DNA of 64,000 nucleotides, from the NCBI GenBank assembly GCA_020344415.1, contig CP070825.1, positions 2,266,015 through 2,330,014 on the forward strand, read 5' to 3'. The stretch comes from Candidatus Aminicenantota bacterium. Its GTDB lineage: Bacteria; Acidobacteriota; Aminicenantia; Aminicenantales; Aminicenantaceae. Numbering within the stretch: the stretch's first letter is position 1; every line of letters starts with the position of its first letter. Below, piece by piece: positions 47,136 through 50,246 of the stretch. A program made the translations under genes and the position numbers. The notes beneath the pieces are model-generated. The model was not told the origin of the DNA, ran no database searches, and saw nothing but the letters and a program-made list of their open reading frames with translations.

Positions 47136-47333
47136 TTACGCTTTTTTCAGGATGGGCATACCGGTTCTTTCTGTTTCAACAGCTTTATAGCCAGCCGGTA
47201 TATCATCTAAGGACCCATCTCTGATATCTCGAGCAAAAAAGTAAATTCTCTGAATTCGTCCTCCTTTTAGATTGACATCCTTGAAATGGAGATAGTACTT
47301 CACACCTTTTGAATTGGTGAATTCATAAGCCAT
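47136..47333 (-). CDS. small conserved protein of unknown function
   Basis: A 65-residue protein starting behind a strong GGGAGGT. The sequence MAYEFTNSKGVKYYLHFKD then GGRIQRIYFFARDIRDGSL and TGMPILKKA resembles a short family seen in Patescibacteria and other uncultured bacteria. The pattern suggests a compact beta-hairpin fold; I know no function. It lies 29 bp from the FadL-type gene on the same strand and could be co-transcribed with it. Confidence 0.7.
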   Translation of the reverse strand: MAYEFTNSKGVKYYLHFKDVNLKGGRIQRIYFFARDIRDGSLDDIPAGYKAVETERTGMPILKKA

Positions 47334-47362: not shown

Positions 47363-48745
47363 TTAAAAAACAAATCCCAAGCTAACCCCAATAAGATGGG
47401 CAGTTGTTTTATAGGTGCCTTTCCACGGATTGAACGTAGCCTGAGGATTAAGATCAAAATACCTGTTTTCACTCTCTCTGTCTTTGAACGGCTCGAACTG
47501 ATAGGCGACATTTAGAACAAAGTTGCCGGACTTATAACCAAAACCTCCAGTAACAGCCCATCGTTCAGAATCAGGAAGAATTGGATCCACGGATTCATCA
47601 GGCTGAGGAGTTTGATCATAAAGAAATCCTGCCCTCAGGGCAAGGTTTTCATTCAGATTATACTCAAGGCCGCCTCGGAAGACAAAGGAATCCTCCCAGT
47701 TTTCCTTAACATGTTTATCATCAAAACCAGGAACTTCAACCGCAACCGTAAATTCATCATAAGTGCTCCACAGGAGATAATGTACATCAGCCGACATTAT
47801 AAGGCTCTCGGTCAAATTAAATGCCAGTCCAACACCAAATATGTGAGGGAAGTTGAAAGATGTGGAAGCGGTACCTCCGCTTGGAACTTGGGTTGCAATA
47901 ACCGTTTCGATTGTCTCGGCTGTCCCTGGTGGCAGTAATTGGTCAAAAGGAGGAAGAAGCTGAACATTGACATCGGGAGCACTCAATTCTAAATTTCCGT
48001 CAAAATCTATCTTGAAGCCACCACGCCAATTGAATCCAAGGGAAAAATTTTCTCCCTTGTAAAGAGCTCCTGCGTTCAAGCCCCACGCACTACCGGTAGC
48101 ATCGAAAAGAACGGGGATTTCAACTGTATATGAACCTATAGCAGGAAAAGGTAGACCAACGACTGAACCAGGAAGCGTATCCTCGTCACGTTCAACGAGC
48201 TCAAATTCCAGGGTTGAATAGATATAGGAAACACCAAAACCCAAAGAGAAATTCTCATTAACCTTGAAAGCCACGGTAGGATTGAAGATCAACGCCTTCA
48301 TGTCATCCCGAACAGAAATATACTTCAGAGGATAATCTTCAGGCCACGTAATCCCCAGACCATATGGAACAAAAAAGCCAAAACCAGCAACAACGCTGTC
48401 AGAGATTTTATGAGAGATATAGAAGGTCGGAGGATAGAACCACTTTTTTTCCCTTTCTACTGTCGTATTAAATGTAGGATCTACTAATGCGTAGTTTGGC
48501 AAGCTCAAATCGCCTATGGATGTGATCAGAGTTGTTCCAAAGTTAATCTGGGTTCCTTCCAACCAGGCCAAACCAGCCGGGTTGTGAAAAATAGCTGTCG
48601 GGTTATTCGCAATAGCAACGAACGCGCCAGCCATCGCCATTGCTGCGGCACCGTGCTCATAGATAAGAAAACCTGCACTATGGGATAAAGTGCTTATGGT
48701 TAAAAATATCAGGCAAAAAATTGAAACAGCAATTATTCTCTTCAT
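47363..48745 (-). CDS. FadL/OmpP1/TodX family outer-membrane transporter
   Basis: A 460-residue outer-membrane protein with a signal peptide. The FadL hallmark is at the mature N-terminus (AGFLIYEHGAAAMAMAGAFV then NNPTAIFHNPAGLAWLEG). A barrel pattern ends in an aromatic residue (LGFVF). Members import hydrophobic compounds such as long-chain fatty acids or aromatics. TTAGGAG precedes the ATG. The Cys-less C-terminal strands and periodic aromatic belts fit a 14-strand barrel. Confidence 0.9.
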   Translation of the reverse strand: MKRIIAVSIFCLIFLTISTLSHSAGFLIYEHGAAAMAMAGAFVAIANNPTAIFHNPAGLAWLEGTQINFGTTLITSIGDLSLPNYALVDPTFNTTVEREKKWFYPPTFYISHKISDSVVAGFGFFVPYGLGITWPEDYPLKYISVRDDMKALIFNPTVAFKVNENFSLGFGVSYIYSTLEFELVERDEDTLPGSVVGLPFPAIGSYTVEIPVLFDATGSAWGLNAGALYKGENFSLGFNWRGGFKIDFDGNLELSAPDVNVQLLPPFDQLLPPGTAETIETVIATQVPSGGTASTSFNFPHIFGVGLAFNLTESLIMSADVHYLLWSTYDEFTVAVEVPGFDDKHVKENWEDSFVFRGGLEYNLNENLALRAGFLYDQTPQPDESVDPILPDSERWAVTGGFGYKSGNFVLNVAYQFEPFKDRESENRYFDLNPQATFNPWKGTYKTTAHLIGVSLGFVF

Positions 48746-49002
48746 TCGAGTCTCCTAAAGAAACAATTTTGCCCTATGCTTATGTATGATCAAGCTTTCT
48801 GTCAATTTTTCTCAGTCTTTCTCAAGTATTTATAAAAAAAACAGGGTAATGTCAAGATAAAATTAGAAAAATTTACCCAGAATATCTCTGGATAGATCTT
48901 CAAAAGACACATAGAATATAACCAAAAATCCTTTATTGCGTTGTTGTGTTTATCTAAAAAATAAAAAAATTTTTTTTTATTTGTAATATTCTTTTTTTTT
49001 TG

Positions 49003-49130
49003 TATAATGGGATTGGTTCTTTTTTGCGGGCTGGAGAGGACCCCCACCTTTTTGGTTCCCATCATCAACCCCCCTTTTGCTGACAACAGCCCGCACCCCT
49101 CCCCCTTCATCAACGGCAAGAAAATAATCC
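49003..49130 (+). ncRNA. candidate structured non-coding RNA with its promoter
   Basis: TTGTAA (48981-48986) and a perfect TATAAT (49003-49008), 16 bp apart, would start a transcript near 49015. The transcript opens with TGCGGGCTG (49025-49033), which pairs perfectly with CAGCCCGCA (49087-49095), closing a 53-nt loop that holds a small ACC-TTTTT-GGT hairpin (49046-49056). TCATCAAC occurs twice (49062 and 49107). No ORF and no ribosome binding site are seen. I cannot match it to 6S, SRP, tmRNA or RNase P. It sits in the 569-bp gap 48746-49314, which has no gene that I accept. The 3' end is a guess. Confidence 0.45.
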
Positions 49131-49314
49131 TTTCTAAGAAAAATGAAATCTCTTCAGACATCTGACGAAATAATGCGGAAAAGTGGGAATTTTAAATTTA
49201 AGACATAAGGTGTCGTGTAATCAATGTGCTATCAAGGGCAGTCATTACTGTTATATTAATATAATATTGTGCTCCCTTAATAGCGGATCTCGCGTTAGAG
49301 ATTGAAGGTTATTT

Positions 49315-50175
49315 TTACCGGAGGACCTCCCCATCAGGATATTTTTTTATGACCTCTACAGGGACGTCAAAAACATTATCCCATCCGCCTAAACGCCGAA
49401 GAACCTGAATAGAGGCAAGACCGCGTTTTTTGCCTTCTTCGATGAGATAAACTGGGCTGCCCCGTGGCCGACCCAATTGTATGATTATATAGCCTTCAAA
49501 AGTAAGGTCAATCATCGGACCTTTTTCCATTTTTTCTAAGGTGTCGTAGGAGACCTTGACAAGATATTTCCAGGGATCTTTTTCTCTATTTAAGTCATAG
49601 TTGAAACGATATAGGCTCTCTAAATTCTTGAAAGGACGACGGACATAGACACCTATGCCCCTCCTTTCAATCATGTAGACTGAAGCGTCTCGTGCTTTTA
49701 CATATCTCTGGTGAAGATAGGCCAGATTGTCAGCAGCTGGCCATCCTGAGAATTCATATTCCATGTTTTCCAGGATCTCTCGACAATTGGAAAGACTGTA
49801 AGGCATCACACTCCCTCTTCTCATCTCTTCTTCTAAGTCATTGAAAGAACGGGTTAGGTAGATGAATGCATTATAGAGATTGGTTCTCAAATACCCCTCT
49901 CTAAAATATCTGGATCTATCTTCTGCGATCTTCAGGAAAAGCCTACAAGAAGCGGCAAAAGCCTCTGATTTAAAAAGAATGGCCTGTTCCTGATCAGAGA
50001 TTTCTCCATTCCAGCCCTTAAAATGTTCATAACTACTCTGTGCGAGATAAGCTGCCTGCCTCTCCAGTTCTACGCCAAGTCTATAAACCGCTTTCCTTCT
50101 ATCCGCATAAGAGGTCGTTATTAAGACAAATACCATAAAGAAAATAGCGTGGATTTTGATTGTTCTGAATCCCAT
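49315..50175 (-). CDS. secreted protein of unknown function with C-terminal repeat-like motif
   Basis: A protein of about 286 residues. The ATG at 50175 has GGAGG 5 nt upstream, better than the ATG at 50187. A signal peptide ends near TSYA. The middle is helical with Arg, Glu and Tyr. The last 45 residues (GSPVYLIEEGKKRGLASIQV then WDNVFDVPVEVIKKYPDGE) match a motif I have seen in surface proteins, in the form VYLIENGKKRHI...YPEG. No named family. Monocistronic. Confidence 0.6.
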   Translation of the reverse strand: MGFRTIKIHAIFFMVFVLITTSYADRRKAVYRLGVELERQAAYLAQSSYEHFKGWNGEISDQEQAILFKSEAFAASCRLFLKIAEDRSRYFREGYLRTNLYNAFIYLTRSFNDLEEEMRRGSVMPYSLSNCREILENMEYEFSGWPAADNLAYLHQRYVKARDASVYMIERRGIGVYVRRPFKNLESLYRFNYDLNREKDPWKYLVKVSYDTLEKMEKGPMIDLTFEGYIIIQLGRPRGSPVYLIEEGKKRGLASIQVLRRLGGWDNVFDVPVEVIKKYPDGEVLR

Positions 50176-50246
50176 CTTTGCCTCCATTCTTGGACACTAG
50201 GAAAAACATAGCGAAATAGAAAGGGAATGTCAATTTCATGTTTCCT

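Follow-up and report, generated by a model that had tools for sequence, protein, structure and literature searches.

A candidate family of sibling small RNAs with a predicted pseudoknot and an invariant loop in Candidatus Aminicenantes

Introduction

The 64,000-nt stretch of a Candidatus Aminicenantota genome analysed here (contig CP070825.1, positions 2,266,015 to 2,330,014; hereafter, the window) contains a gap of 569 bp (48746–49314) between a FadL-type and a lipoprotein-like gene, which was originally predicted to be gene-free and to encode an orphan structured RNA that could not be placed in any class. The gap is indeed free of protein-coding genes, and it raises the question of whether an RNA gene resides there and, if so, which kind of regulator it encodes. 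RNA regulation is nearly undescribed in this widespread uncultured group, and we found no study of small RNAs in the open-access literature on Aminicenantes.

Distribution of the RNA among genomes

A 93-bp core of the gap was found by DNA search in 54 out of 60 relatives, representing all 32 genera sampled, with the best match per genome typically demonstrating 90–97% identity over approximately 70–90 nt. A covariance model search of the class revealed matches in 93 of the 142 genomes, at one to many copies per genome; within the order (the home genome, its family and the order), 89 of the 94 genomes match the model. Outside the order, there is one clear match, G100 (E 2.9e-17, two copies). 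Three weak matches (G105, G131 and G141, E 3.7e-4 to 9.6e-4) were not counted, and G105, the only one of them inspected, shows by eye no fold of the kind described below. Among the 396 genomes of a phylum sample, 29 match, none of them outside the class.

A scan of named genomes recovered at least 115 stretches. Among the 80 matches listed, nearly all are titled Candidatus Aminicenantes, Candidatus Saccharicenans or Acidobacteria/Acidobacteriota, while one is titled 'uncultured bacterium' and one 'Bacterium'. A 3.96-kb contig from a Nitrospirota-labelled bin (L194) contains a pair of intact copies, each with a promoter, at a distance of 3.3 kb from each other, which reflect either mis-binning or horizontal transfer. 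A Clostridiales-labelled contig (L195) appears to match contig C40 of G045, a genome placed in the same order. The Syntrophomonadaceae-labelled match L183 was rejected: it has no stem A (see below) and, lying within a coding stretch, seems fortuitous. Viral contigs, searched by exact pattern, and phage and plasmid records, searched by blastn, yielded no match to the RNA.

No Rfam 15 family matches the window above the gathering threshold, and at E<=10 the region 48800–49300 yields four chance-level hits (E>=1) to other families, far below threshold. No earlier description was found in the open-access literature subset, including the accessible parts of PMC5900883, PMC8632094 and PMC2864571, although a description that is not indexed there is conceivable. 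As judged from Rfam 15 and this literature, the RNA family is undescribed. Its presence in most relatives, its covarying fold and the lack of an Rfam family thus support the original proposal of an orphan structured RNA, and we regard it as nearly certain that the locus represents a real, conserved and independent RNA gene.

Promoter and boundaries of the RNA gene

The predicted promoter comprises a -35 box TTGTAA (48981–48986) and a -10 box TATAAT (49003–49008) on the forward strand, separated by 16 nt, exactly as originally read. Among 88 full-length copies, a -10 box with at most one mismatch to TATAAT ends 4–8 nt 5' of stem A in 82, and in 73 it ends precisely 6 nt from it; at a control offset of 30–34 nt, such a box occurs in a single copy. 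A -35-like box (TTGACA/TTTACA-like, at most one mismatch, spacer 15–19) accompanies 54 of the 82 copies having a -10 box, with a spacer of exactly 16 nt in 40 of these. We propose that this is a sigma-70-type promoter. Because standard promoter spacing and the position of the -10 box place +1 at the G with which stem A begins, transcription should start at 49015, as inferred from promoter geometry.

The predicted small RNA gene extends over 80 nt on the forward strand, from this 5' end to the end of stem B (49015–49094), as delimited by homologue searches and alignment. Stem B is followed by a C-rich tail without a U-run (49095–49108, forward strand), and comparison of the copies revealed TTTT within 14 nt after stem B in just 11 of 88; a U-run therefore does not explain the 3' end. 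Conservation among canonical copies (those with an unchanged stem B) equals 0.56 in the first 10 nt past stem B and 0.32–0.37 farther on, so that the background level is reached within about 10 nt. The length between the two strands of stem B (aligned span, gaps removed) is 68, 69 or 70 nt among canonical copies. Since it varies by single bases, there is no conserved reading frame, and a coding sequence is rejected.

Pseudoknot architecture

Homologue searches produced 97 profile hits in 94 loci, of which 88 were full length after removal of one duplicate and of partial copies. The alignment contains 86 of them, omitting the indel-rich L081 and the second copy in L089; loci from L095 onward are absent from it. 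The perfect pairing of TGCGGGCTG (49025–49033) with CAGCCCGCA (49087–49095), 53 nt apart, on which the original prediction was based, is present in the sequence. In the alignment it corresponds to an 8-bp stem B, formed by GCGGGCTG (49026–49033) and CAGCCCGC (49087–49094). A second helix that was not part of that prediction, the 9-bp stem A formed by GGTTCTTTT (49015–49023) and GAGAGGACC (49034–49042), is interleaved with stem B, and its first base is the predicted transcription start. The predicted fold is thus an H-type pseudoknot in which stem A abuts stem B directly, with a 2-nt loop 1 (49024–49025; position 49025 is also able to pair with 49095), no linker and a loop 3 of about 44 nt. The interior is pyrimidine-rich and contains a small hairpin, as originally noted; this hairpin, ACC-TTTTT-GGT, lies inside loop 3 (49046–49056). 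All these elements are on the forward strand.

The case for this predicted structure is comparative. Across the 86 aligned rows, 96.5% of cells are paired, and two-sided changes are seen at 10 of 20 pairs, including 7 of the 9 pairs of stem A. Doubly changed cells number 114 versus 37.9 in shuffles, and the covariation score of 0.268 (shuffles, 0.157 +/- 0.006) was reached by none of 500 shuffles; sliding the partners by 1–3 columns reduces it to at most 0.119. Within the 57 canonical rows, stem A is paired in 501 of 513 cells, with six pairs doubly changed and 62 doubly changed cells, and since this is seen within copies with canonical stem B alone, the covariation of stem A is not merely a contrast between paralogues. 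Stem B is paired in 98.1% of cells and covaries much less than stem A. When uncompensated changes were sought in it, the stem was found unchanged in 57 of the 86 copies, whereas its third pair flips on both sides from G-C to C-G in 26, is U-G in one and is unpaired in two. The hairpin of loop 3 is paired in 94.1% of cells with little covariation, and it is missing in a shorter-loop subfamily and in the G100 copies. The single-sequence folding energy is unremarkable (z = -1.79), by a method that is blind to the knot.

Sibling copies in the home genome and its relatives

Besides the pseudoknot and the invariant loop described below, the analysis uncovered further copies in the home genome, where a DNA search with the gap finds the locus itself and three other places matching the same central block, and the covariance model finds nine matches. 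Genomes thus hold several homologous standalone genes, as a trans-encoded sibling sRNA of the csRNA or LhrC kind requires. The siblings mostly have a GCCGGC-type stem B and are located away from the canonical locus; some of them are decayed, and diverged ones tolerate deletions in the loop. Syntenic siblings adjoin a gene labelled by eye as PAS/LuxR-type in L055, L064, L072 and L076, or an ORF family of 154–256 aa in L085, L090 and L092.

Several side observations concern these copies. In L066, L070, L077, L083, L084 and L086, which represent different genomes, diverged copies are followed by a common repeat roughly 100 bp long that includes words resembling TTGTGCAA and TTATCCACAG; this may be a distinct dispersed element that moved together with the RNA copies. 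Two RNA subfamilies form a tandem pair within about 150 bp in L089, as well as in G059, G069 and G072, and are located about 1.2 kb apart in G062. A further subfamily, with stem B GCTGGCTG...CAGCCAGC and the loop ...AACCC(C/T)CCTTTTGCTTATT..., is represented by L323, L324 and L347 from three genera and is too diverged for the covariance model used.

The invariant loop and its potential partners

The single-stranded part of loop 3, TCCCATCATCAACCCCCCTTTTGCTGACAA (49057–49086, forward strand), is invariant in 28 of its 30 columns across the 57 canonical, orthologue-type rows, with a mean identity of 99.6%, and presumably represents the interaction surface of the RNA. The minimal loop core common to siblings and the G100 copies is AUCA(UCAA)CCCCCCUU(UUGCUGAC), and its complement, AAAGGGGGGUUGAUGAUG, resembles a ribosome-binding site followed by a start codon. 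In the home genome, just two non-self sites, at C1:2800664 and C1:3283919, match this complement with at most two mismatches, and both are located on the ribosome-binding site and start of an ORF, encoding a 300-aa CAAX-protease-like and a 393-aa PAP2-like membrane protein (labels assigned by eye). At up to three mismatches, there are 12 near-complementary sites, of which only these two are clearly at a start. Among relatives, one of 16 fetched near-complementary sites is on a start (L331), and no fewer than two of the remaining sites, L323 and L324, are by eye diverged copies of the RNA itself. The PAP2-like gene was rejected as a conserved target: of 60 genomes, 23 encode a homologue, and such a site is missing from the five closer ones that were inspected. 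The complement of the other loop half has a single site with two mismatches, which is not at the start of an ORF of at least 60 aa.

We also compared the loop with translation initiation regions in general, using 118 loci with 510 initiation windows and 600 of 880 internal ATG windows, where starts were taken as the first ATG and some are wrong. The loop shows no preference for starts (difference +0.08 kcal/mol), whereas the anti-Shine-Dalgarno tail in the same comparison gives -1.40 kcal/mol; shuffled loops performed equally well or better than the real loop in 27 of 40 cases. The loop is similar to the 16S rRNA 3' tail, and the shorter loops AUCACCCCCCUU of some copies are more so. The long 16S tail pattern has no match in the home genome, and GGATCACCTCC has two, neither of them in a 16S context. 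The preference for initiation regions expected of a generic anti-Shine-Dalgarno mimic is absent, and a general role of this kind is disfavoured, while pairing with a few specific mRNAs is possible.

The closest functional parallels appear to be the csRNAs and the LhrC family, by analogy and with no sequence relation or homology claimed. Streptococcal csRNAs are reported to be multi-copy, mutually similar sRNAs with an unpaired region complementary to the Shine-Dalgarno sequence and AUG (PMC3091779). The present RNA likewise forms a multi-copy family, and the complement of its loop is AAAAGGGGGGUUGAUGAUG; csRNAs are described there as having two stem-loops and as being under CiaR control, whereas here an H-type pseudoknot with a far more constant loop is predicted and a general preference for initiation regions is lacking. 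The sibling sRNAs of the Listeria LhrC family are reported to pair AG-rich Shine-Dalgarno regions through CU-rich single-stranded regions (PMC5880928); they possess multiple CU-rich loops and are not known to show a constancy across an order like that found here. Among Acidobacteria, the Acido-1 and Acido-Lenti-1 motifs (RF01686 and RF01687) are presented as candidate non-cis-regulatory RNAs obtained by comparative genomics (PMC2864571); our stretch matched neither these nor any other Rfam family above threshold.

RsaI/RsaOG of Staphylococcus is an sRNA that combines a pseudoknot with a pyrimidine-rich unpaired segment, and the likeness consists of these two traits, its sequence having been compared through Rfam only. 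6S RNA (RF00013), a global regulatory RNA of many bacteria, differs from the present RNA in size and fold. It has no match in the window or in any of 31 genomes of the order, while 5 of 14 control genomes match; this may reflect either loss or a divergent 6S RNA.

These data bear on whether the partner of the loop is an mRNA or a protein. Invariance at 28 of 30 positions exceeds what mRNA seeds usually need, and it fits well with the partner being a protein or a conserved RNA. A ribonucleoprotein RNA, the pseudoknot and loop of which bind a dedicated protein to sequester its activity or to serve as a scaffold, as 6S and CsrB RNAs do, would need no mRNA pairing at all, and it would fit both the indifference of the loop to initiation regions and the lack of detectable 6S RNA in 31 genomes. 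However, there is no candidate protein, the repeated exposed GGA motif expected of a CsrA decoy is absent by eye, and diverged siblings tolerate loop deletions. We thus consider such an RNA somewhat unlikely. A bolder version, a housekeeping-grade and lineage-defining regulatory RNA whose loop would dock with a conserved dedicated protein or a core RNA and act as a global regulator, with the siblings specialised, seems unlikely.

A different use of the same region would be a nested switch, in which the 3' strand of stem A (GAACC) alternatively pairs with GGUUC at 49054–49058 and the exchange is regulatory. This helix can form in 90.8% of cells, but its covariation does not exceed that of shuffles, 255 of 500 of which attain its paired percentage and 241 its score, and its 3' side stays constant whereas stem A varies, making the switch very improbable.

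Genomic context

The gene is flanked by a divergent FadL/OmpP1-type outer-membrane protein gene (47363–48745, reverse strand; PF03349, syntenic family f3) and a convergent lipoprotein-like gene without a Pfam match (49315–50187, reverse strand). Beyond the former lies a gene for a conserved small protein of 65 aa, also without a Pfam match (47136–47333, reverse strand), and its family (f1, 21 members) is a recurrent upstream neighbour of the RNA throughout the order. The neighbourhood of canonical copies includes the 65-aa small protein and the FadL-type gene upstream, and then the lipoprotein-like gene, a GAF protein, an M20-type peptidase, an M64 peptidase and an arginase-family protein. The next gene is inconsistent: of 59 canonical copies, 18 have their nearest downstream ORF of at least 140 aa within 500 nt on the same strand, 26 have it on the opposite strand and 15 have none or one farther away, and downstream gene families differ among copies. 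Because neighbours recur while the strand and presence of the next gene do not, the RNA is an independent, vertically inherited gene and not a leader.

A role in cis, as a leader or riboswitch acting on the following gene, is thereby largely refuted. A conserved pseudoknot with an invariant loop would be typical of a riboswitch, and some copies lie 17–90 nt 5' of a same-strand gene, but the arrangement downstream of the remaining copies leaves this explanation highly improbable. A type III antitoxin RNA (ToxI-like) was also rejected, the gap holding a single copy without tandem repeats and no Pfam toxin family being adjacent. Finally, a dispersed repeat or mobile element that is not a functional RNA would account for the variable copy number and for the downstream repeat shared by several diverged copies across genomes, but it is scarcely credible given the neighbours kept by the canonical copy across genera, the covarying fold, the lack of matches in the viral, phage and plasmid collections and the absence of any transposase noticed among the listed neighbouring proteins.

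Discussion

The best reading of the locus is that it represents the canonical copy within a family of sibling sRNAs in the order titled Candidatus Aminicenantes. Its most plausible account is a trans-acting sibling sRNA in which a pseudoknot scaffold presents an invariant loop to an mRNA or protein partner, and we would give this account an even chance of being correct. Trans base pairing falls a little short of even as the main mode of action, while binding of a dedicated protein is a doubtful option. Under this account, a sigma-70-type promoter would set the start of transcription at stem A's first base, and the interleaved stems A and B would lock its 5' end and close its 3' end. The knot would then serve as a scaffold showing the invariant C-rich loop AUCAUCAACCCCCCUUUUGCUGAC in trans to its partner. 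The most likely mechanism would be base pairing of the loop with G-rich segments in a limited number of mRNAs, whose translation would thereby be reduced, and the diverged copies would act as siblings with overlapping target sets. An Hfq-like protein perhaps assists the pairing; of 31 genomes, 28 contain an Hfq-like gene at E<=1e-3, and 19 have one above the Pfam cut-off.

The RNA probably does something essential to these bacteria. It provides a ready covariance model for annotating the order, as well as a phylogenetic marker, and it gives metatranscriptomes a concrete object, namely the presence of the RNA, its 5' end and its partner. It also raises the question of which partner fixes 28 of 30 loop bases across a bacterial order. 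If the RNA were indeed a lineage-defining housekeeping RNA, it would represent a global regulator in an order without detectable 6S RNA.
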